A stretch of DNA of 64,000 bases from an uncultured Piscirickettsiaceae bacterium (GTDB taxonomy: Bacteria > Pseudomonadota > Gammaproteobacteria > Methylococcales > Cycloclasticaceae): the NCBI GenBank assembly GCA_913061075.1, contig CAJXSK010000001.1, positions 186,001 to 250,000 of the forward strand, given 5' to 3'. Below the pieces are notes generated by a model. It was not told where the DNA came from. It saw nothing but the letters and a program-made list of their open reading frames with translations, and ran no database searches. How positions within the stretch are numbered: the first letter of the stretch is position 1; each line of letters starts with the position of its first letter. Positions 13,631 through 26,281 of this stretch are shown in pieces. The position numbers and the translations under genes are program-made.

Positions 13631-14143
13631 TTACGTAGAACCAATTAATTTTTTGGTCATTTCAGGATAAGGACCATTTAGACCTAGCCAGATTGAAGCA
13701 AAGGCGTCTGAAAACCCTGTTTGATCTATTTTGCCTATAAATTGATCGTTAAAATAGAAGTAGGTGATTTTTTCATTATCGATGTAAAACGTAATCTTAT
13801 CTGCGGGTTTAACACTGGGCCATATCGCTAACAATTGTTTCGCCCAATTTTTTTTCTGGTTTTCGCTAATATTGAAACGTTCCCATTGGTTTACTGTTTC
13901 ATCCACAAGCTCAACGTTAGATATTTCTCTTTTGTAAGTTAATTCTAGTGACAAGGGGAATTTTCCTGCCTCGTAAATCCCACTGGGCGTCTTTAATTCA
14001 ATATCGTATATATCCCAAAACCAGACACTAAAGTTTGAACGGCCGACGACGGTTAGGTCATTCTGAGCACTTTCATTTGCACAAACGAGGCCTATTTGTA
14101 GTACAAGTAACACCATAAGAGTTTTACGTAGAAGCTTTTTCAA
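13631..14143 (-). CDS. periplasmic chalcone-isomerase-like protein
   Basis: 170 residues with a signal peptide (about 1-22, ending VCA). The mature part resembles the bacterial chalcone-isomerase-like family: FSVWFWDIYDIEL, LELTYKREI and a C-terminal FSDAFASIWLG. Such proteins are found beside ECF/ChrR stress loci; no flavonoid chemistry is implied, and lipid binding is one idea. It begins 39 bases after the anti-sigma gene and is probably the third gene of that operon. Confidence 0.8.
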   Translation of the reverse strand: MKKLLRKTLMVLLVLQIGLVCANESAQNDLTVVGRSNFSVWFWDIYDIELKTPSGIYEAGKFPLSLELTYKREISNVELVDETVNQWERFNISENQKKNWAKQLLAIWPSVKPADKITFYIDNEKITYFYFNDQFIGKIDQTGFSDAFASIWLGLNGPYPEMTKKLIGST

Positions 14144-14182: not shown

Positions 14183-14890
14183 TTAATAGCTCGCATATCT
14201 ATTAAATATTGGGCCCAATAAGCCAGTAAAACGTAAGGGTGCATCCGTTATTGCTAAACAAACACAACCTGAGGTGCCGACGATAGGTTTATGTTCATCA
14301 GAACCGTCACACGCAATAAAATCACCTGCGTTATGTTTACCTTTGTGGTCTTTAAAATCACCTTTAATAACATACGTGAACTCTTTGCCTAAATGAGTAT
14401 GCTTAGGGATTTTGGTATGGGGTGAAAAACGTAACAAATTAACTTTAAAGCTAGGATCGTATAACTCCAGTGCAACAGATGATATTTTGGATGAGAGTTT
14501 TTGCCACTCGAAATCATCGTAATTAAAATCGGATAATTGGTTAAATAAAGGCCTATTTATTGCGGCAATGGCATAACTTAAGGTGTCATCTTCGCCAAAA
14601 TCATCGATATCGATATTTTTCTTATAAAGGCTTTTAGAAGTTTTTGAAACATCATTGTCTGATGTTGGTAATTTATCTAAATCAGCTGTTAAACGCTCAA
14701 AGCTATTATTTTCAATGCGAGAAGCTTCTGATAATTCGAGATTCTGGCCGTAAGAAGACTCTATAGCTGCAATTTTTTGTCGGCAAGGTTTGCATTGTTT
14801 TTGATGCAGAGCGATGGCCAAACTCAATGCGGGTTCTACATTTCCATTTGAATAGTTTAATAATAACTCAGTATTTATGTGGTTGTTCAT
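14183..14890 (-). CDS. chrR: ChrR-type anti-sigma factor (zinc ASD + cupin)
   Basis: 235 residues. The N-terminal anti-sigma domain carries H4, H29, C33 and C36, whose spacings equal the zinc ligands of Rhodobacter ChrR (H6, H31, C35, C38). The C-terminal cupin carries H164, H166, E170 and H200, again with the ChrR spacing (H141, H143, E147, H177). In Rhodobacter this protein holds the ECF sigma factor until singlet oxygen triggers release. The start overlaps the sigma gene's stop (ATGA), so the two are translationally coupled. Regulator identity is firm; the signal is inferred from the family. Confidence 0.95.
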   Translation of the reverse strand: MNNHINTELLLNYSNGNVEPALSLAIALHQKQCKPCRQKIAAIESSYGQNLELSEASRIENNSFERLTADLDKLPTSDNDVSKTSKSLYKKNIDIDDFGEDDTLSYAIAAINRPLFNQLSDFNYDDFEWQKLSSKISSVALELYDPSFKVNLLRFSPHTKIPKHTHLGKEFTYVIKGDFKDHKGKHNAGDFIACDGSDEHKPIVGTSGCVCLAITDAPLRFTGLLGPIFNRYASY

Positions 14891-15552
14891 TCGTCTCGAC
14901 TCCCTATATGGTGACGCAAAACCTTCAGTGAGCTTCTAATTCGAGACTTGATGACACCTAATGTTAAGTCAAGTTCTTGAGCTGCTAATTGATGACTTTT
15001 ATCCTCGTAATAAACTTTTAAAATAACGCTTTTTTGTTCGTTACTTAAATACTTAAAATTATTAGCCAGTTTAATTTTATCGTCGGCACTAATAAGCTCT
15101 TCGTGAATATCGTCTTCAATTATATGAAGGTCAGAATGAGAGTCGTCTAGCTTGACTTCAATAATTCTTTTTTGTCGAAGTAGATCAATTTTTAAATTTC
15201 TAGCGATGGTGAAAATCCAAGTTGAAACGTTTGCCTTGTCAGCTTGGTATGTGTTGGCTTTTTGCCAAACACGTATGAACACTTCATGGGTCATCTCTTC
15301 AGCGTGGCTTGCGCTAGCCTGTTGTTTGAAAAATGTTTTGACCTTGGGGGCGAAGTAAAAATACAAAGCCCTGTATGCGTTCTTATCTTGCTCAATGGCC
15401 ACCGCATGCATGTATTGTTTGCACAGACTTGCTTGCTCCGCCTTGCTTGGTGATGGCTCGCCCATAAATGAATAAATTGGTTGCCGAAGAATAGTATGAG
15501 CTGACCAATATACTAAGTTTTCGTTTACTTGTCTTTGCGCTTGCATATTCAT
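14887..15552 (-). CDS. rpoE: ECF sigma factor, RpoE/ChrR group
   Basis: 221 residues. Region 2 includes EEMTHEVFIRVWQKA and STWIFTIARN; region 4 includes QLAAQELDLTLGVIKSRIRSSL, the helix-turn-helix. The partner ChrR gene overlaps its stop. The annotated start gives about 30 residues more than typical relatives, and an internal ATG at 15465 is an alternative; neither has a clear ribosome site. It is expected to direct polymerase to the two mirror-image promoters at 15608-15671, one of them its own. The symbol follows Rhodobacter usage; it is not the E. coli envelope-stress RpoE. Confidence 0.93.
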   Translation of the reverse strand: MNMQAQRQVNENLVYWSAHTILRQPIYSFMGEPSPSKAEQASLCKQYMHAVAIEQDKNAYRALYFYFAPKVKTFFKQQASASHAEEMTHEVFIRVWQKANTYQADKANVSTWIFTIARNLKIDLLRQKRIIEVKLDDSHSDLHIIEDDIHEELISADDKIKLANNFKYLSNEQKSVILKVYYEDKSHQLAAQELDLTLGVIKSRIRSSLKVLRHHIGSRDE

Positions 15553-15607
15553 ATTTAATAAAAACTTTTTGTAAAGGCTACGTATCTTTTTAGTCTCTAC
15601 TTGGTTT

Positions 15608-15633
15608 TACGACAAATAACGCAGATTGGATCA
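15608..15633 (-). promoter_or_regulatory. predicted ECF-dependent promoter of the sigma/anti-sigma operon
   Basis: Minus strand: -35-like TGATCC (15633-15628), 16 bases, then CGTA (15611-15608). The sequence matches almost base for base the plus-strand promoter of the divergent lipid operon. It lies about 55 bases before the sigma start. A TGATC-type -35 is known for RpoE-ChrR promoters; autoregulation is the usual pattern. Confidence 0.7.
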
Positions 15634-15645
15634 AAAAAATAATTT

Positions 15646-15671
15646 TAATCCAATCCGTGTTATTTTACGTA
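15646..15671 (+). promoter_or_regulatory. predicted ECF-dependent promoter of the lipid-remodelling operon
   Basis: Plus strand: TAATCC (15646-15651), 16 bases, CGTA (15668-15671), about 30 bases before the DUF3833 start. It shares CCAATC and GTTATTT in the spacer with its divergent partner. The inner TTGGAT/ATCCAA arms (15626-15631 and 15648-15653) form a perfect inverted repeat. Confidence 0.7.
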
Positions 15672-15700
15672 CAACTTATTATGTCAATTAGATTGAGGCA

Positions 15701-16276
15701 GTGATGAAATTATTTTGTATGGTGTTAGGTGTTTCCATATTAAGCGGTTGTGCAATAGACGCTAATAAATACCGTAATAAAACACCTGGTTTTCAGTTCG
15801 AATCCTTTTTTCAAGGAAACCTATGTGCAAAAGGCCTAGTGAAATCAAGAAATGGTCAAATTAATCGAAAGTTTGCGGCTGACATTGTCGCCTTTAGTAC
15901 GGAGGATAAAGTTAGGCTAGAAGAAGTCTTTCTATTTGATGATGGTGAACGTCAAAACCGTGACTGGGTCTTTGACAAAACACCTAAGGGTTGGATAGGA
16001 ACAGCAGGCGACGTTGTTGGAATTGCCAATGGTGAAGTATTTGGCGATAGCTTACATTTAAATTACCAATTAAAAATTAACATTGATAACACTGAATACA
16101 TTGTGGCAATGGATGATTGGTTAACGTTAGTAGATAGCTCGACGCTTATGGGCTCAACAGAAATCAGTAAATGGGGTGTTAATTTGGGACGTATCGATAT
16201 CGTGATTCAAAAAGAAGCTATGATCCAAAGTGATATAAATAACGTAAGAACTTGTATAGAAGATAGAGTGTTGTAA
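15701..16276 (+). CDS. DUF3833 lipoprotein
   Basis: 191 residues with lipobox LSGC (Cys about 16). The mature part fits DUF3833: YRNKTPGFQFESFFQGNLCAKG near the start and a GNA-poor, beta-rich, lipocalin-like body. Proteins of this family recur next to ECF/ChrR and Cfa-like genes, so a role in handling modified lipids in the envelope is inferred. First gene after the predicted ECF promoter; the desaturase begins directly at its stop. Confidence 0.85.
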   Translation: MMKLFCMVLGVSILSGCAIDANKYRNKTPGFQFESFFQGNLCAKGLVKSRNGQINRKFAADIVAFSTEDKVRLEEVFLFDDGERQNRDWVFDKTPKGWIGTAGDVVGIANGEVFGDSLHLNYQLKINIDNTEYIVAMDDWLTLVDSSTLMGSTEISKWGVNLGRIDIVIQKEAMIQSDINNVRTCIEDRVL

Positions 16277-17209
16277 ATGCGTTTGCTAAATAGATTAAAA
16301 CCCATGCTTTTATGGTTTGATGCTAAATCAAGTGTCAATCAAGATGAAACTGAAAATCCAAATAAACTGGGCTGGAGCCAGGTAACGCCATTTGTTTTTA
16401 TGCATTTAATGGTATTGGCCGTTATTTGGGTGGGTTTTAGCTGGATAGCCATGTGGACCGCAGTTGCTTTATATTTTATAAGGATGTTTGCTATCACCGG
16501 TTTTTATCACCGATATTTTTCACATAAACTGTTTAAAACATCGCGTTTTATGCAGTTCTTTTTTGCGTTTATGGGGGCTAGTTCGGCGCAAAGAGGCCCA
16601 TTATGGTGGGCGGCACATCATAGAACCCATCATCATGCTTCTGATAAAGAAGATGATCCACATTCACCTAGATTACAAGGTTTTATTTGGAGCCATTGTC
16701 TTTGGTTCTTATCCCCCAAAAACCTCCCAACGCGAACGGATAAGATAAAAGACTTTAATAAATTCCCAGAATTAAGGTGGCTTGACCGGTTCGATATAAC
16801 GGCACCCTTAGTGTTAATTATTGCCCTCTATTGCGTGGGTTTTCTAATGGCTACTTATTACCCGCATTTGGAAACAACTGGGGCGCAAATGATTATATGG
16901 GGTTTTTTTATATCAACGGTCGCTTTGTACCACGGAACGTACACAATAAATTCTCTTGCACACAAATTCGGCAGTCGACGCTTTGATACGCTTGATGACA
17001 GTCGTAATAACGCACTGTTAGCCATTATTACGTTAGGTGAAGGTTGGCATAATAATCACCATTATTATCCTGGGAGCGCGAGACAGGGCTTTGTATGGTG
17101 GGAACTTGATATTACTTTTTACGTGCTGAAGATAATGAGTTGGTGTGGTCTGGTTTGGGATCTGAAACCGATTCCCATCGAAGTGCAAAAAGAGATTGCA
17201 AGGAGATAG
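16277..17209 (+). CDS. acyl-lipid / acyl-CoA desaturase
   Basis: 310-residue membrane di-iron desaturase. The three histidine boxes are H78RYFSH83, H115RTHH119 and H258NNHH262. Hydrophobic pairs lie at about 35-70, 92-105 and 170-220. It introduces a double bond in fatty acyl chains (delta-9 type by overall pattern). In this operon it would make the unsaturated chains used by the Cfa-like methyltransferase. The start directly follows the DUF3833 stop. Confidence 0.92.
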   Translation: MRLLNRLKPMLLWFDAKSSVNQDETENPNKLGWSQVTPFVFMHLMVLAVIWVGFSWIAMWTAVALYFIRMFAITGFYHRYFSHKLFKTSRFMQFFFAFMGASSAQRGPLWWAAHHRTHHHASDKEDDPHSPRLQGFIWSHCLWFLSPKNLPTRTDKIKDFNKFPELRWLDRFDITAPLVLIIALYCVGFLMATYYPHLETTGAQMIIWGFFISTVALYHGTYTINSLAHKFGSRRFDTLDDSRNNALLAIITLGEGWHNNHHYYPGSARQGFVWWELDITFYVLKIMSWCGLVWDLKPIPIEVQKEIARR

Positions 17210-17211
17210 TT

Positions 17212-17628
17212 ATGATCACTGATAAATTCACTCAAATCTATCAACGACTTCACAAAGATAACCTCGAGTTATTGGGGGAGCTTTACAGTGAAGGTATAAC
17301 GTTTATTGACCCCTTGAACAAAGTTGAGGGGCTTGATGGTTTAACGGTTTATTTTGCTGACTTATACGAAAACGTATCTTCAATTAGCTTTAACTTTATA
17401 GAGGTGAAGTCGTTTGAAAACACCCATTTTATCACCTGGACTATGACCTTAACTCATTCAAAACTGAATGGTGGGAAACCTTATGCTGTGGCAGGTGTTA
17501 CACATTTACAAACGGATGAAAACGAAAAAATAAACTACCACCGAGATTACTTTGATGCAGGAAAAATGTTGTACGAACAAATTCCGGTGATAGGAACAAT
17601 AATAACTTGGATTAAACGGAAGCTCTAA
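17212..17628 (+). CDS. NTF2-like (SnoaL-type) protein
   Basis: 138 residues. I use the ATG at 17212 because AGGAG (17201-17205) lies 6 bases before it; the frame stays open upstream only inside the desaturase gene. The FIDPLNKVEGLDGL and YFADLYENV runs are typical of the cone-shaped NTF2-like fold. Small proteins of this kind often accompany SDR and Cfa-like enzymes in ECF/ChrR operons. Reaction unknown. Confidence 0.8.
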   Translation: MITDKFTQIYQRLHKDNLELLGELYSEGITFIDPLNKVEGLDGLTVYFADLYENVSSISFNFIEVKSFENTHFITWTMTLTHSKLNGGKPYAVAGVTHLQTDENEKINYHRDYFDAGKMLYEQIPVIGTIITWIKRKL

Positions 17629-18395
17629 TGATATATGATTTTAAAGGTAAAAATGTTTGGGTTACCGGGGCTTCAAGCGGTATCGGTATGGGTTTGGCTA
17701 ATCAATTAGCTGAAAAAGGTGCCACTGTGTTCGTTAGTGCTAGAAATGTCGACAAGTTAAACGAAAACTTTGCGGATAATGCGTCGGTAACGATATTGTC
17801 AGGCGACTTAACCTCTGCTGACGTAAATAAAAAAATAGCAGCCCAAATTAAAGCTTCGGCGGGCGGGCTGGATTGCGTTATTTTTAATGCGGGTACCGCT
17901 GAATATGTTGATGTTTATAACTTCTCTGCGGCTCCATTTGAACGAATGATAGAAGCGAACTATTTTTCCATGGTAAGAGGAATTGAAGCTGCAATGCCGT
18001 TAATAAAAGAGTCAAAAAATGCTTATTTGGTTGGTATGAGTTCTAGTGTTAGTTGGCAAGGGCTTCCTTCAGGACAAGCGTATTCAGCTAGTAAAGCTGC
18101 CATCAGAAATTTATTCCAAGGGTTGAAAATTGAGCTTGCTCCTAAAGATATAGCCGTTAGTTGGATATGCCCTGGCTTTGTTAAAACGCCGTTAACTGAT
18201 AAAAACACTTTCGATATGCCGTTTAGGGTGAGCATTGAAGAGGCAACCGATACAATCGTTAAGCATTTGGAAAAACAAACCACGGAAATCCACTTTCCTA
18301 AGCGTTTCACGTATTTTTTAAAGATAGTTTCTTATTTACCGGCTGGATTGGCTGCAAAAATATTAAGCAAAACAGTGCCAGAATCTAGCCTATGA
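17628..18395 (+). CDS. short-chain dehydrogenase/reductase
   Basis: 255 residues. The NAD(P)-binding motif GASSGIG is at 14-20, NAG at about 87, and the catalytic Ser-Tyr-Lys set includes Y152 and K156 (YSASK). It overlaps the NTF2-like stop by one base (TAATG) and the next start by four (ATGA). An oxidoreductase step on a lipid or lipid-derived carbonyl is inferred from the operon. Confidence 0.9.
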   Translation: MIYDFKGKNVWVTGASSGIGMGLANQLAEKGATVFVSARNVDKLNENFADNASVTILSGDLTSADVNKKIAAQIKASAGGLDCVIFNAGTAEYVDVYNFSAAPFERMIEANYFSMVRGIEAAMPLIKESKNAYLVGMSSSVSWQGLPSGQAYSASKAAIRNLFQGLKIELAPKDIAVSWICPGFVKTPLTDKNTFDMPFRVSIEEATDTIVKHLEKQTTEIHFPKRFTYFLKIVSYLPAGLAAKILSKTVPESSL

Positions 18396-19648
18396 AAATT
18401 GCTATCGTTGGTACAGGTATAGCTGGAAGTTTGGCTGCGCATCACCTAAATAAAAAGCACGATATTACCGTTTTTGAAGCCGAGAATTATGTCGGTGGAC
18501 ACACGCATACCCACACGATTGAGTTGGGTGGTGAAAAGCAAATTATTGATACGGGCTTTATTGTTTTTAATAAAAAAACGTACCCAAATTTTCTTAACTT
18601 ATTAAAAGAATTAGGTGTTGCTTACCAATCAAGTGATATGAGTTTTAGTGTCCAAAATGAACGCACGGGCCTTGAGTATAACGGTACAAATCTAAATACA
18701 TTATTCGCTCAACGTAGTAACTTGTTCAGGCCTCGTTTTTATCGAATGATAAAACAAATATTACGCTTTAACGAAGAAAGCCTCAGTCTGTTATCGGACG
18801 AAACGCATTCGATATCAATGGGTGATTACTTATCTGATAATAAATACGATAAAGAATTTATCCATGATTATATTATCCCAATGGGCGCTGCAATTTGGTC
18901 TACCGACCATGACAGCATGTTTGCATTTCCGGCCCGTTTTTTCGTCCAGTTTTTCCATAACCACGGCATGTTATCGGTTGATGTGCGTCCCGAGTGGTTC
19001 GTTATTAAAGGCGGTTCTTCTGAATACTTAAAACCACTTATTGCAGAACATAAAGATAAAATTCGCTTATCTGCGCCCGTCGAAAACGTACGTAGGACAG
19101 AGAGCGACGTTTTTGTAAAAGCGATAGGACATGATGAAGAACGTTTTGATTACATTTTTATCGCCTCGCACAGTGATCAAGCGTTAAGTGTGTTGGCTGA
19201 GCCTTCGACACTAGAAAACGAAGTGTTGGGTGCAATACCTTATACCGATAATGAAGCCGTATTACATTACGACGAAAGCGTATTACCTAAACAAAAACTA
19301 GCATGGGGTGCTTGGAATTATCACTTGTTGAAAGAAAAAAAAGACCGCGTTGCGCTGACTTACAATATGAACATCCTGCAGTCACTTAAAAGTGATTACA
19401 CATTTAATGTAACCCTCAATAATACAACAGCGATTGACCCCCATAAAATTATTAAGGAGCTCCAATACACGCATCCATTTTTTAGTATCGATGGTGTAAA
19501 AGCACAACAAAAACACAGCGAATTAAATGGCCTAAATCGCACCTATTATTGCGGCGCTTATTGGCGATATGGATTTCACGAAGATGGCGTTGTTAGTGCA
19601 TTACAAGCACTCGAAGACTTCGATAGGGACCAAATAAGTGAAAAGTAA
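18392..19648 (+). CDS. FAD-dependent oxidoreductase (COG2907 type)
   Basis: 418 residues with an N-terminal FAD motif GTGIAG (7-12), then the ENYVGGHTHTH run characteristic of this group of amino-oxidase-like flavoproteins, and YWRYGFHEDGV near the C-terminus. It is almost always found next to DUF1365 and a Cfa-like gene. In Rhodobacter, genes of this kind are under RpoE-ChrR and linked to singlet-oxygen response and furan fatty acids. ATGA overlap with the SDR gene. Confidence 0.88.
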   Translation: MKIAIVGTGIAGSLAAHHLNKKHDITVFEAENYVGGHTHTHTIELGGEKQIIDTGFIVFNKKTYPNFLNLLKELGVAYQSSDMSFSVQNERTGLEYNGTNLNTLFAQRSNLFRPRFYRMIKQILRFNEESLSLLSDETHSISMGDYLSDNKYDKEFIHDYIIPMGAAIWSTDHDSMFAFPARFFVQFFHNHGMLSVDVRPEWFVIKGGSSEYLKPLIAEHKDKIRLSAPVENVRRTESDVFVKAIGHDEERFDYIFIASHSDQALSVLAEPSTLENEVLGAIPYTDNEAVLHYDESVLPKQKLAWGAWNYHLLKEKKDRVALTYNMNILQSLKSDYTFNVTLNNTTAIDPHKIIKELQYTHPFFSIDGVKAQQKHSELNGLNRTYYCGAYWRYGFHEDGVVSALQALEDFDRDQISEK

Positions 19649-20408
19649 AATATTCACAGGTCGCGTTAGACATAGGCGGTTTACACCTAAAAAAAACGAA
19701 TTTCAATACAATATATTTATGTTGTACTTGGACCTTGATGAACTGCCGACGTTGTTTGATCGTTTTTGGCTTTGGTCTTTGAACAAAGCTAACGTGGCGA
19801 GTTTCCACACAAAAAAATATTTAGCCGACGAAAATAGCTGTATTAAAACCGGCGTTAAGAATGAAGTTGAATCTCAATTAGGCGTTATCCCGAAAGGGCC
19901 TATCAGATTACTGACACACCTAACGTATTTTGGGTATTGCTTTAACCCCGTTTCTTTTTATTATTGCTTTAACGAAGACGACGAAACGCTCGACTTCATA
20001 GTAGCCCAAATAAATAACACGCCGTGGAATGAACGGTATTGTTATGTTTTAGACAATAGACCCTCAGATATAAGCAACAAAACAAGCAAAGTGGTTAGAA
20101 GTGAGTTTGAAAAGAAATTCCACGTGTCGCCATTTTTACCAATGGATATGCAATATTTTTGGCGATTTAACACGCCGGATAATAAGTTGGCCGTGTACAT
20201 GAAAAATACACAAGAAGAAGTGACGTGTTTTGACGTCAATTTGTCCTTAAAGAGCAAAGAAATTAATGCCTTAAACCTGTGTGCTGCTCTCGTAAAGTTC
20301 CCCCTGATGACGTGGCAAGTGGTTTTCGGTATTTATTGGCAATCATTAAAACTATGGTTAAGAAAAATACCTTTTTATGATCACCCCGACAGTCACAGTG
20401 CTAAGTAA
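19638..20408 (+). CDS. DUF1365 family protein
   Basis: 256 residues starting at a GTG inside the end of the flavoprotein gene (11-base overlap). The family run YFGYCFNPVSFYYCF is present, together with GRVRHRRFTP at the N-terminus. Function is not established; constant linkage to the flavoprotein and Cfa-like genes points to the same fatty-acid modification. Confidence 0.9.
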   Translation: MKSKIFTGRVRHRRFTPKKNEFQYNIFMLYLDLDELPTLFDRFWLWSLNKANVASFHTKKYLADENSCIKTGVKNEVESQLGVIPKGPIRLLTHLTYFGYCFNPVSFYYCFNEDDETLDFIVAQINNTPWNERYCYVLDNRPSDISNKTSKVVRSEFEKKFHVSPFLPMDMQYFWRFNTPDNKLAVYMKNTQEEVTCFDVNLSLKSKEINALNLCAALVKFPLMTWQVVFGIYWQSLKLWLRKIPFYDHPDSHSAK

Positions 20409-20462: not shown

Positions 20463-21758
20463 ATGAGTAATTCAGCATCAGTAAAAAAACTAACGGAACA
20501 CTTAGAAAATAAAGCAAACAGTAGTAGAAGTACCTTTTTCACTAAGGTTTTAAAAAGGGCCGTGTTTAAGCACTTAAGTCAACTTCAGTACGGCGAGCTA
20601 ACCTTGACGGATAATGGAGAAACACAAACGTTTGCCGGCGATAAACGTAGCGATTTAGTCGTTGAAATGAACATTGTGAATAGCGAGTTTTATTGGTATA
20701 TCGCATTGGGTGGTAGCGTAGGTGCAGCCGAAGCTTATATAAGTGATTACTGGCGCACGTCTGACCTAACCAAGGTTATTCAACTCTTTGCACTAAATCA
20801 ATCTGTTATGGACTCTATGGAATCTGGTCTAGCAAGCTTTACGACCCCGATTAAAAAAGCATTTCATTGGCTAAATAAAAATACGCACACGGGCAGTAAA
20901 AGCAATATTGTTGCTCATTACGATTTAGGGAATGATTTTTTTAAGTTATTTCTTGATCAAACGATGATGTATTCGTCGGGTATTTTTTACAAGCCAGACG
21001 ACACGATGGAACAAGCTTCTATCAACAAATTAGAAAGAATATGTACCCGCTTAAACTTAAAGCCTGAAGATCACGTGATTGAAATTGGAACGGGGTGGGG
21101 TGGTTTTGCAATGTATGCAGCCAAAAATTATGGTTGTCACGTCACCACCACTACAATTTCTGAAGAGCAATATGCGCATACACAACAGCAAGTTGAGAGA
21201 GCAGGCTTAAGCGGTAAAATTACCTTATTAAAACAAGACTACCGTGAACTTACAGGACAGTACGATAAGCTGGTGTCTATAGAAATGATCGAAGCGGTTG
21301 GGCATCAATACTTTGATACCTTTTTTGCAAAATGCAGTGGGCTTCTAAAAGATGATGGCGAAATGTTAATTCAAGCCATCACGATTAGTGATCAGCGTTT
21401 TAATAGCGCAAAAACTGAAGTGGATTTTATAAAACGCTATATTTTCCCCGGCAGTTGCATACCGTCTGTTAACGCTATCAGCCATAGCTTAACTCAATCG
21501 GGTGACCTTCGAATAACGAACTTGGATGACATCGGTACGCATTACGCGAGAACATTAAATGAATGGAAAAGGTCGTTTAAAGAGCGCATTGAAGAGGTAA
21601 AAGCACTAGGTTTCAGTGACGCGTTCATACGAATGTGGGAATACTACTTCAGTTATTGTGAAGGTGGCTTTAAAGAACAGGTCATTAGTGTCTCTCAACT
21701 ACACTTAGTTAAACCATTGGCGCGTGTTCCAATGTCACTTACCCCCTTGGAGAAATAA
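20463..21758 (+). CDS. cyclopropane-fatty-acyl-phospholipid synthase-like methyltransferase
   Basis: 431 residues. The SAM-binding motif is EIGTGWGGFA (about 206-215), preceded by the family run VAHYDLGNDFFKLFLD and followed by EMIEAVGHQYF. Cfa enzymes methylenate acyl double bonds in membrane phospholipids; UfaM-type relatives put a methyl group on unsaturated chains on the way to furan fatty acids. With a desaturase and ECF/ChrR control in the same locus, either product is possible. AAAGGA lies before the ATG. Confidence 0.9.
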   Translation: MSNSASVKKLTEHLENKANSSRSTFFTKVLKRAVFKHLSQLQYGELTLTDNGETQTFAGDKRSDLVVEMNIVNSEFYWYIALGGSVGAAEAYISDYWRTSDLTKVIQLFALNQSVMDSMESGLASFTTPIKKAFHWLNKNTHTGSKSNIVAHYDLGNDFFKLFLDQTMMYSSGIFYKPDDTMEQASINKLERICTRLNLKPEDHVIEIGTGWGGFAMYAAKNYGCHVTTTTISEEQYAHTQQQVERAGLSGKITLLKQDYRELTGQYDKLVSIEMIEAVGHQYFDTFFAKCSGLLKDDGEMLIQAITISDQRFNSAKTEVDFIKRYIFPGSCIPSVNAISHSLTQSGDLRITNLDDIGTHYARTLNEWKRSFKERIEEVKALGFSDAFIRMWEYYFSYCEGGFKEQVISVSQLHLVKPLARVPMSLTPLEK

Positions 21759-22269: not shown

Positions 22270-22638
22270 TTATTTTGCATTAACGGCAGATGAAACCAGT
22301 AAATCCACCATTAACTCAGAAGCACCTAAATGGGGTGCAAGGCTTATATCAATGTTTGGGTGTTGAGCTGTACAAATATTAATGATGTTGGGTATGTCTT
22401 CAAACACGTGGCGTCCAGAATTAAGGAAGTAGGGCAAGACAATAATAGACGTTGCGCCATCTGAAATACATTGTTCAATACCTTCAGGAATCAACACATC
22501 GGCAAGCTCTAAAAATGCAGACTTAACAATGTCGTACTGCTCACCACAGCTATTTTTAAGCTTTTCAGCTAAGGCAACAACCTCGTCATTAGATTGTTTT
22601 CGCCGGCTACCGTGTGCGACGAGTAATAATGCTTTCAT
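22270..22638 (-). CDS. CbiX/SirB-like sirohydrochlorin chelatase
   Basis: 122-residue single-domain member of the class II chelatases, which insert iron or cobalt into sirohydrochlorin. VAHGSRR near the start supplies the metal His (H10); the SGRHVFEDIPN segment is the second family mark. It overlaps the psiE stop by four bases and converges on the DUF2878 gene. Whether it serves siroheme or cobalamin synthesis cannot be told here. Confidence 0.85.
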   Translation of the reverse strand: MKALLLVAHGSRRKQSNDEVVALAEKLKNSCGEQYDIVKSAFLELADVLIPEGIEQCISDGATSIIVLPYFLNSGRHVFEDIPNIINICTAQHPNIDISLAPHLGASELMVDLLVSSAVNAK

Positions 22639-23093
22639 GGTTTAACGACATCATCTTTATTTTTTCCTAACAAATAATAAGTGATGCCTAATGCCAAAAT
22701 AATGCTGGCTAATGCAAACATATGCATTGGAACTACAAACTTAAAATCAATAATAATCACCTTTCTAGCCATTGCCATCATGGCGGTTGCGATAACTAAT
22801 CTTAATGGAAATACATCTGTTCTTAGGTACAAAACAATATTTTGAAAAATTTCGATTGCTATTAAGACGGCTAAAAATGCTGCGAACGTTTTAAAGATAT
22901 CGGACAGGCTTAACAGTAAAAAAGGAGGCGCAATAAGCTGGTTGTACATGACGTACAAAACATCGGCTACGCCCCAAAAAATAACCAGTACCATCAACAC
23001 AGCTAATATTCTAATGGCAAGTTTAATCGCCTTATGTAAAACAGAAATTAAAGGGTCGTGGTGCTCGGTGGGTAGTTCATCATGGTTGTTCAT
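22635..23093 (-). CDS. PsiE-family membrane protein
   Basis: 152 residues with four transmembrane helices and the family run LRTDVFPLRLVIATAMMA followed by RKVIIIDFK. PsiE was named as phosphate-starvation inducible in E. coli; function unknown. It sits 68 bases after the Old Yellow Enzyme gene and overlaps the chelatase. Confidence 0.87.
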   Translation of the reverse strand: MNNHDELPTEHHDPLISVLHKAIKLAIRILAVLMVLVIFWGVADVLYVMYNQLIAPPFLLLSLSDIFKTFAAFLAVLIAIEIFQNIVLYLRTDVFPLRLVIATAMMAMARKVIIIDFKFVVPMHMFALASIILALGITYYLLGKNKDDVVKP

Positions 23094-23161
23094 TTTTGCT
23101 CTCTTTATAAATTTAAGTAATGTAATCTTGTTTAGTATTAAGTTAGGTATTGTATGCAGGC

Positions 23162-24298
23162 CTAACGGAGTCCTAATTTGCGCATAACGCGTTCACGTTT
23201 GTTTAGCCACCAACCAAAGGCTGGGTCCCATAGGGAATAATCATCATCCGCTGCAATTTCTTTAGCTGCCTGTAAAGGCCAATTAGGGTTGTTCAATAAC
23301 TCCCTACCAATGGCGATAAGGTCGGCTTGCCCCGATTCGATAACCGTATTTGCAACACGCGCATCCCATATAAAACCAACCGCCATTGTTGCAATATCGA
23401 CATTCTGGCGTATTTCTTTGGAAAAACCTGCTTGAAAAGCTGGGCCAATAGGGAATGAGATCGGCGGGTGTGGGCCGCCAATGCCGCCGCTCGAACAATC
23501 AATCACATCTACACCCCGGTCTTTAAGTGCTTTAGCCAACTGAATACTATCTTCAACAGTCCAACCGCCGTCTATCCAATCCGTTGCTGATATGCGGAAG
23601 AATAATGCCTTTTCTGCAGGCCAATTTTTTCTGACGGATGACGCGACGTCTAAAGCGAGTTTAATACGACCTTCGAAACTGCCGCCCCATTGATCTGATC
23701 GGGTATTGCATAAAGGTGAGTAAAACTGATGCAATAAAAACCCGTGGGCGGCATACACTTCAATGGCGTCAAAACCTGCTGAATCAGCTCGTGCTGCGGC
23801 TAGTCCAAAATCTTCAATAATTTGATGAATATCTTCATCAGTCATTATTTTTGGCGCAGGCCACTCTTTTCCATAAGGCTCGTTTGTAGGCCCTATTGCA
23901 GCCCAAGGCGCTTCGTTTCTTTCTTTAACGTCTTGTTCGTTAACAGGCGATTCACCATGCCACGGGCGTCGCTCACTGGCTTTTCTACCTGCATGTGAGA
24001 GTTGAATGCCTACGATTGACCCTTCGGCTTTAATGAACTTAGTGATTGGTTTTAATGCGTCTAGTTGATGGTCATTCCAAAGTCCTAGATCACCGTGCGT
24101 ACGCCGTCCATCTGACGAAATGGCAGTTGCTTCTGTAAATACGATACCGCAACCGCCTAAGGCGAATCGGCTTAAGTGTGCAAAGTGCCAATCATTGGCC
24201 ACTCCGTCTTTTGCTCTGTATTGGCTCATTGGTGAAACGCAGACACGATTTTTCAGTGTCAGGCTTCTTATTTGAAAGGGGTCAAAAAGTTTCGCCAT
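23162..24298 (-). CDS. NADH:flavin oxidoreductase (Old Yellow Enzyme, YqjM-like)
   Basis: 378 residues, an FMN-binding TIM barrel. Marks include the opening FDPFQIRSLTLKNRV, the HAGRKAS run, AAHGFLLHQFYSP with the downstream NTRSDQWGG, and the late ADLIAIGRELLNNPNW. The family reduces activated C=C bonds with NAD(P)H, which would fit detoxifying reactive enals from oxidised lipids (inference). It follows the lipocalin gene by 43 bases in the photolyase series. Confidence 0.92.
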   Translation of the reverse strand: MAKLFDPFQIRSLTLKNRVCVSPMSQYRAKDGVANDWHFAHLSRFALGGCGIVFTEATAISSDGRRTHGDLGLWNDHQLDALKPITKFIKAEGSIVGIQLSHAGRKASERRPWHGESPVNEQDVKERNEAPWAAIGPTNEPYGKEWPAPKIMTDEDIHQIIEDFGLAAARADSAGFDAIEVYAAHGFLLHQFYSPLCNTRSDQWGGSFEGRIKLALDVASSVRKNWPAEKALFFRISATDWIDGGWTVEDSIQLAKALKDRGVDVIDCSSGGIGGPHPPISFPIGPAFQAGFSKEIRQNVDIATMAVGFIWDARVANTVIESGQADLIAIGRELLNNPNWPLQAAKEIAADDDYSLWDPAFGWWLNKRERVMRKLGLR

Positions 24299-24341
24299 GT
24301 GTGTTCCAATAATTTTAAAATCCGCTGATACAGTTTACGTG

Positions 24342-24854
24342 TTAATTATGTTCAACAACAATCAATTGTGATGTGTTAAACCCCCGTTCTTTAGACATTG
24401 AGATAAACTTTTCCATAATCTCTGGTTTAACGGAGGGGGTTCTTGATAACAGCCATAAGTAATCCTTATCGGGCCCTGATATAAAGGCATATTGATAATT
24501 CTCTTTATCTAACTCAAAAATAATATACGAACCATAAAACGGGCCAAAAAATGAAACCTTTAAATATCCTTCGTTTGGTTCGTTAACAAAGTAGGCTTTA
24601 CCTAACGCTTCTTTCCACGCATTGTTTTCTGATGAAAACCCACGATTGAGAACGGTTACACCACCGTCTTCTCTCAAGCTGTATTCTGCGCTTACTTGGT
24701 TTAAACCTCTTTCAAACGAATGATCTAGTCGAGCAACTTCGTACCATTTACCTAAATATTTATTAAGCTCAAAGTTTGAAACGGGTTGAACGCCGGGTGG
24801 CAAACCAACACAGCCAGATAGAATGAAAAGAAAACCATATATAAAATAACGCAT
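24342..24854 (-). CDS. blc: outer-membrane lipocalin (Blc-like)
   Basis: 170 residues with lipobox LSGC (Cys about 15) and the lipocalin GxW motif in YLGKWYEVARLDHSFERG. The C-terminal LWLLSRTP segment is typical of Blc. Blc binds lysophospholipids and fatty acids and is stress induced. It lies 11 bases after the photolyase gene, so it is part of the same transcript. Confidence 0.92.
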   Translation of the reverse strand: MRYFIYGFLFILSGCVGLPPGVQPVSNFELNKYLGKWYEVARLDHSFERGLNQVSAEYSLREDGGVTVLNRGFSSENNAWKEALGKAYFVNEPNEGYLKVSFFGPFYGSYIIFELDKENYQYAFISGPDKDYLWLLSRTPSVKPEIMEKFISMSKERGFNTSQLIVVEHN

Positions 24855-24865
24855 TGTTTTATCCT

Positions 24866-26281
24866 TTAATTAACATCTTGTTTTAGTTGTTTAAAAACAG
24901 AAAGAGCCCTTAACCTGCAAACCTTTAAATCTACAATGGGTGCTGGGTAATTCTCAGGCTTATTTTTAACGTTCGGTAAGTGAATCTCTTTATCGGACAA
25001 GTGAGCCAACTCGGGTAAATAATGGCGAATAAAGGTGCCATTCGGATCAAACCGTTGTGATTGAGTGACAGGATTGAAAATTCTGAAGTAGGGAACGGCA
25101 TCAGTTCCTGTTGATGCACACCATTGCCAACCCCCATTGTTTGCCGCCAGGTCGCCATCAATCAAATGTTGCATAAACCAACGCTCACCTAAACGCCAAT
25201 CAATTAATAAATGCTTGGTTAAAAACATGGCGACTACCATCCGCAAACGGTTGTGCATCCAGCCTCGCGCCAGTAGTTGTCGAATAGCCGCATCAATTAG
25301 AGGAAACCCAGTTTTACCTTGCTGCCATGCGCTTAATTGTTCGTCATCATGTCGCCATTCAATTTGTTCAGTTTGTATTTTCCACGGTTTATGCCTAGAA
25401 ACTTGTGGGTAATCAATCAGTGTATGTTTGTAAAATTCTCGCCATAGCAATTCATTTTGCCAAATACGTATGTCTGCATTAGCTTCTCCGTATTGTTCAG
25501 AAGCTTGCCAACATTGGCGGATTGAAATAATGCCGCTCGCCAAATAAGGCGATAGGCGACTGGTGCCAGCTATTGCTGGTAGATCGCGGTTATTTTGGTA
25601 ACTTCGGATGGGTTGTTGACAAAAGTCGGCTAGTCTCGCTATGGCTTTTTGCTCACCTGCGGGCCAAAAATAACGCAGACTTTTCGACACCGTTGGCCAC
25701 GATATGTCTATCAAATCACATTGTTGTTCTAACGTATTAACAGTCGTTTTTATACAAGGATCTGGCGCTGGGTAAACATGAAACGAATTCAATAGGTAGC
25801 GTCTAGCGTGCTTTGAAAAAGGCGTAAACACCTTAAAGGGTGTGCCTGCTTTCGTCCTTAAACTCGCCGGTGGTAAGAGTAACTGGTCATGATAGTGTTG
25901 ATATGACAGTCCCATTTTTTGACAACGCTCCATAACGGCCTGATCTCTTTGCTGTTCGTTGGCTTGGTACTCTTGGTTAAAATGCAATTGATTGATTTGC
26001 CATTGTTGGCAAATAGTGGCAATTAAATCTGGTATTTGCTGATAGCTGTTCACCTCAAAAAAATGAAGTGTGATATTAAGTTTAGCCAGACCTTGTTTTA
26101 GTTCAAAAAGATTGCGGTGCCAGAAATCTATTTTAACTTCAGCATCATCGTGTTTTTGCCATTGATCTGGGGTTGCTATATAAATCGCAGTTACAGCTTG
26201 CCCTGCTTGGCAAGCATGAAAAAGTGCCGGATTATCTTTTATGCGCAAATCATTGCGAAACCAAACTAATTGTTGTGACAT
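24866..26281 (-). CDS. phrB: deoxyribodipyrimidine photolyase
   Basis: 471 residues, the length of E. coli PhrB (472). The N-terminal antenna-binding domain begins QLVWFRNDLRIKDNPAL; the C-terminal FAD domain has GWMHNRLRMVVAMFLTK, then WCASTGTDAVPYFRIFNP. Class I CPD photolyase, which uses blue light to split pyrimidine dimers. Its ATG shares one base with the merR stop, so it is coupled to the regulator. Confidence 0.96.
   Translation of the reverse strand: MSQQLVWFRNDLRIKDNPALFHACQAGQAVTAIYIATPDQWQKHDDAEVKIDFWHRNLFELKQGLAKLNITLHFFEVNSYQQIPDLIATICQQWQINQLHFNQEYQANEQQRDQAVMERCQKMGLSYQHYHDQLLLPPASLRTKAGTPFKVFTPFSKHARRYLLNSFHVYPAPDPCIKTTVNTLEQQCDLIDISWPTVSKSLRYFWPAGEQKAIARLADFCQQPIRSYQNNRDLPAIAGTSRLSPYLASGIISIRQCWQASEQYGEANADIRIWQNELLWREFYKHTLIDYPQVSRHKPWKIQTEQIEWRHDDEQLSAWQQGKTGFPLIDAAIRQLLARGWMHNRLRMVVAMFLTKHLLIDWRLGERWFMQHLIDGDLAANNGGWQWCASTGTDAVPYFRIFNPVTQSQRFDPNGTFIRHYLPELAHLSDKEIHLPNVKNKPENYPAPIVDLKVCRLRALSVFKQLKQDVN

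Follow-up and report, generated by a model that had tools for sequence, protein, structure and literature searches.

Divergent predicted promoters of the ECF11 (sigma-E/ChrR) type with matched spacers in an uncultured Piscirickettsiaceae bacterium

The window, a stretch of 64,000 nucleotides from contig CAJXSK010000001.1 (positions 186,001 to 250,000; assembly GCA_913061075.1) of an uncultured Piscirickettsiaceae bacterium, carries two groups of genes that diverge from a short intergenic region. The gene immediately to the left (14887-15552, minus strand) encodes an ECF sigma factor of 221 aa, in which Pfam regions 2 and 4 are both present and whose best match among solved structures is RpoE of Rhodobacter sphaeroides (2q1z_A, E 1.1e-26). 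Its predicted N-terminus holds about 30 residues more than that of R. sphaeroides RpoE, and the extension is kept in the related genomes G005 and G014. The next gene (14183-14890, minus strand) encodes a ChrR-family anti-sigma factor that consists of a zinc anti-sigma domain and a cupin domain. This protein scores 151.6 bits against TIGR02451 (cutoff 124.5) and matches Cupin_7, and its sole match among solved structures is ChrR (PDB 2z2s/2q1z chain B; match to 2z2s_B). The metal ligands that PMC6852236 names for ChrR have counterparts here: HxxxCxxC in the anti-sigma domain and, in the cupin domain, HxHxxxE followed further on by a His. The assignment to a singlet-oxygen-type sigma/anti-sigma pair, proposed earlier from the sequence only, is thus borne out by the ChrR-family score and by the RpoE match. 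A gene for a chalcone-isomerase-like protein (13631-14143, minus strand), found in the same place in G005 and G014, is probably the third gene of the sigma operon.

On the opposite side, the lipid operon begins with a gene for a DUF3833 lipoprotein-like protein (15704-16276, plus strand), the ATG of which, at 15704, is preceded by GAGG. The genes that follow on the same strand were identified by family matches and encode a fatty acid desaturase (16277-17209), a SnoaL-like protein (17203-17628), a short-chain dehydrogenase/reductase (17628-18395), a flavin amine-oxidase-type oxidoreductase of the RSP_1091 type (18392-19648), a DUF1365 protein of the RSP_1090 type (19638-20408) and a cyclopropane-fatty-acid-synthase-type methyltransferase (20463-21758). 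The RSP_1091 and RSP_1090 assignments were made from family annotation and gene order. At the junction of the DUF3833 and desaturase genes (16167-16288), 122 of the 122 compared bases are the same in G005 (L067), although the sigma proteins of the two genomes are 90% identical; the full identity of the junction suggests either recent exchange or strong constraint. Past the lipid operon, genes assigned by eye as CbiX-like, PsiE-like, old-yellow-enzyme, lipocalin and photolyase-like lie on the minus strand (22270-26281), and most of them are also found near the locus in G014.

The intergenic region contains the motif TRATCC-N16-CGTA on each strand, and both occurrences are exact, with zero mismatches. 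The predicted promoter of the sigma/ChrR operon occupies 15608-15633 on the minus strand (TGATCC-N16-CGTA; TGATCCAATCTGCGTTATTTGTCGTA), with the spacer AATCTGCGTTATTTGT, and that of the lipid operon occupies 15646-15671 on the plus strand (TAATCC-N16-CGTA; TAATCCAATCCGTGTTATTTTACGTA), with the spacer AATCCGTGTTATTTTA. The two -35 hexamers are separated by a core made of A and T only (15634-15645), which is kept in all three genomes. The sequence-only reading had placed both sites symmetrically about 15639.5 within a 64-base palindrome of near-identical halves. The centre is correct ((15608 + 15671)/2 = 15639.5), and the inner arms mirror each other exactly, with TTGGAT at 15626-15631 and ATCCAA at 15648-15653. 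The two sites are not identical, however: the -35 hexamers differ in one base, and between the spacers 12 of 16 positions match and four differ. The inverted repeat itself is real and imperfect: it spans 15604-15675, encloses both promoters and consists of 33-nt arms (15604-15636 and 15643-15675) that are 82% complementary around a 6-nt loop. Pairing was observed at 27 arm positions, compared with at most 21 when the 151-base intergenic stretch was shuffled with its dinucleotides preserved (0 of 200 reached the observed value). In shuffles of the same kind the motif occurred at a frequency of 0.00075 per shuffle, and none of 20,000 carried it on both strands.

The motif is the published ECF11 consensus, so the claim that these are ECF promoters is supported. 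TGATCC-N16-CGTA was defined for PSPTO_1043 of Pseudomonas syringae by ChIP-seq and qRT-PCR (PMC5507510), and the RpoE2 promoters of Shewanella oneidensis, whose starts were mapped by primer extension, have TGATCC and CGTAWT hexamers (PMC4336711). The lipid-side TAATCC is acceptable, with A tolerated at position 2, since katG of P. syringae has an upstream site of the form TAATCT-N16-CGTA that is induced (PMC5507510). In R. sphaeroides, RpoE promoters precede both rpoEchrR and RSP_1091-1087 (PMC3818230). Besides the sigma/ChrR pair, the present locus shows two further features of an ECF11 system, namely the autoregulatory motif 5' of the sigma gene (15608-15633) and core genes of the RSP_1091, RSP_1090 and cfa types behind the same motif at 15646-15671. 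Given the published motif and these flanking genes, together with the sigma/ChrR pair, the reading of the element as two promoters that diverge from each other and serve the adjacent ECF11 sigma factor is well supported, and we regard it as very probably correct.

The locus resembles that of R. sphaeroides in that the sigma factor and ChrR adjoin an operon with RSP_1091- and RSP_1090-type genes and in that each operon has its own sigma-E promoter, here a predicted one. It differs in that desaturase, DUF3833, SnoaL-like and CFA-type genes are included in a single run, in that the two promoter spacers match and in that a wider regulon was not found. With the PSPTO_1043 system it shares the motif, the identical spacing and core regulon genes; the P. 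syringae regulon, however, is spread over many loci, and its sigma and phrB-cfa loci lie apart, unlike the divergent neighbours described here. The RpoE2-ChrR system of S. oneidensis has the same TGATCC and CGTAWT hexamers and a regulon that includes cfa and photolyase (PMC4336711), but it has several dispersed targets, and its predicted SO_1986 and SO_1987 sites have unrelated spacers.

The gene order of the locus, the chalcone-isomerase-like gene included, is the same in G005 and G014, and the motifs and the 12-base gap hold their place in both. The lipid-side -35 hexamer is TAATCC in G005 and TAATCT in G014, which is two bases off the consensus compared with one base here. The identity between the two spacers is 12/16 in this genome, 14/16 in G005 and 8/16 in G014; under a composition model, the chance of such a match is about 6e-4 for this genome and about 8e-6 for G005, the only other genome with matched spacers. 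When this genome is compared with G014, 11 of 12 bases of the A/T core and 18 of 32 spacer bases are the same, and the hexamers show one change. It is therefore the hexamers, gap and A/T core of the element that last, and the matched spacers do not. Against G005, the conservation of spacers and flanks did not differ significantly (Fisher p = 0.35). The sigma factor and the DUF1365 protein occur in the same three of the 18 genomes of the genus, which indicates that the system was gained or lost as a unit. A TIGR02451 search at the order level gave only weak matches outside the genus, and a profile search of the contig collection with the sigma alignment found one locus (L017).

The survey covered 125 distinct ChrR loci, taken from class and phylum samples of Pseudomonadota and phylogenetically non-independent. 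The sigma-side motif (TRATCY-N16-CGTA) was present in 73 of them, and in 33 a divergent partner motif lay at most 200 bases away. The -35 hexamers of these pairs lay 2 to 102 bases apart, with a median gap of 25, so fixed spacing is not required, and several pairs had RSP_1091-like genes on the far side. The divergent pair is accordingly a recurrent form of the sigma-E/ChrR system: the promoter type was already published, and the layout is common in the family and does not make the element novel in kind. The spacers of the 33 pairs were unrelated to each other (mean identity 5.5, maximum 9/16). The spacer match at the present locus exceeds this maximum and is a small lineage-specific oddity, the sole unusual trait of the locus. 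In 102 survey promoters of the exact ECF11 type, the 15 bases upstream of the -35 hexamer were 56% A/T, compared with a background of 42%. The A/T core between the present promoters is probably an UP-like contact common to both, a role that is consistent with this upstream enrichment. A purine directly follows TGATCC in 96 of the 102 promoters (loci L051-L177), which is a small refinement of the consensus.

The genome scan proposed earlier as a check did not bear out the expectation that the local promoter definition would lead to the rest of the regulon. The exact motif has 13 matches in the 2.26-Mb genome, compared with eight for a reversed-pattern control. Three of them are placed as promoters at the locus; the third of these (TGATCC-N16-CGTA, 16221-16246, plus strand) lies inside the DUF3833 gene at its 3' end, with the desaturase ATG 30 bases further on, is identical in G005 and absent in G014, and is a possible internal promoter for extra desaturase output. 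Outside the locus, the only exact match in promoter position is TAATCC-N16-CGTA at L013 (G000:C14:43170-43195), 60 bases before a tyrosyl-tRNA-synthetase-like gene (tyrS), and this may be a chance match. The remaining nine fall inside reading frames, and most of these are on the opposite strand. Allowing one mismatch gave no enrichment (159 genome matches compared with 247 for the reversed control), and the TRATCY form in G005 (14 matches) and G014 (13 matches) was also near control. For the photolyase-like gene within 22270-26281 no exact motif was found; photolyase is a core target of ECF11 elsewhere. The response looks local, and further weaker sites could exist in the genome.

The matched spacers allow the element to be viewed in a different way, with the whole 64-base palindrome acting as a regulatory module, for example as the site of a second dimeric regulator or as a cruciform, in which the spacers themselves are functional. 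The spacer identities here and in G005, higher than in any of the 33 other pairs, and the strong fold of the element as single-stranded DNA (z = -6) speak for such a module. Nevertheless, in G014, which shares the gene order, the motifs and the 12-base gap, the spacers agree at half of their positions, and the survey pairs vary widely in gap and have unrelated spacers. Moreover, the genome shows no excess of the arm sequence (10 matches with at most two mismatches, 10 in the reversed control), and both changes between this genome and G005 break arm pairing, neither being compensatory. The functional module claimed by the sequence-only reading is for these reasons an unlikely explanation. An intergenic inverted repeat that is long and imperfect could also be a palindromic element of the mobile or repeated kind (MITE/REP-like), with the motif in it by chance, but the element is single-copy, its only full-length matches in the 18 genomes of the genus are the orthologous sites in G005 and G014, and the geometry between the genes persists at a sigma identity of 75%; this origin is extremely improbable. 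A partial match to the element in G014 lies within an aldehyde dehydrogenase gene. In G008, a genome without the sigma factor, a 25-base stretch (L178 1670-1715, G008:C1) is a 96% match to the lipid-side promoter in its -10 half and leader; it lies between porin-like (FadL-type by eye) and LysR-type genes and includes the -10 half only, with no TGATCC upstream. The hairpin would be stable if transcribed through, as in a terminator, attenuator or riboswitch; however, transcription is predicted to begin at the outer edge of the repeat or past it, which would leave the repeat out of both transcripts, there is no Rfam match and the repeat coincides with the promoter hexamers on both strands. We therefore give an RNA-level element almost no weight.

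With the divergent promoter pair as the preferred reading, the spacer match (12/16 and 14/16 in two genomes, 8/16 in G014 and at most 9/16 elsewhere) is better accounted for by a lineage-specific inverted copy than by a functional module. The simplest account is that one promoter was copied in inverted orientation, or that the arms were later homogenised, in an ancestor shared by G005 and the present genome, as judged from three genomes. More specifically, the second promoter may have been born or overwritten by an inverted copy through a template switch at a quasi-palindrome, with the spacer match as its trace; we offer this proposal tentatively and consider it rather doubtful. It is less likely that competition or cooperation between the two promoters in binding polymerase arises from the matched spacers and the shared A/T core.

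From the motifs, their geometry, the gene identities and their conservation, we infer the activity of the promoter pair, its inducer and the feedback, as well as the origin of the spacer match discussed above. Inactivation of ChrR, which singlet oxygen or organic peroxides bring about in studied relatives, would free the sigma factor, which would bind each TRATCC-N16-CGTA site and start transcription a few bases past each CGTA. It would thereby fire the lipid operon to the right and, to the left, the sigma-ChrR operon to which it belongs. In R. sphaeroides, activation by singlet oxygen needs RSP_1091 and RSP_1090, which promote ChrR turnover (PMC3818230). If the RSP_1091- and RSP_1090-type products act here as they do in Rhodobacter, the promoter pair would wire a positive feedback beside the autoregulatory loop. 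Joint firing of both operons, as the sequence-only reading had suggested, and the feedback loop are expected in the present organism from the published biology of sigma-E/ChrR systems.

The genome has 11 matches of the ring-hydroxylating dioxygenase alpha type, and the host is probably a small-genome marine degrader of aromatic hydrocarbons. Polycyclic aromatics can photosensitise singlet oxygen, so a sigma-E/ChrR response would be ecologically sensible in such a host. If the tentative inverted-copy proposal is true, a single step let the sigma factor capture or tune a divergent operon. The spacer match offers a small test case for the origin of divergent promoter pairs. The locus extends the sigma-E/ChrR stress circuit to a probable marine aromatic-hydrocarbon degrader, in which the circuit seems to be reduced to one self-contained locus, with the regulator, the target operon and the promoters within about 8 kb.
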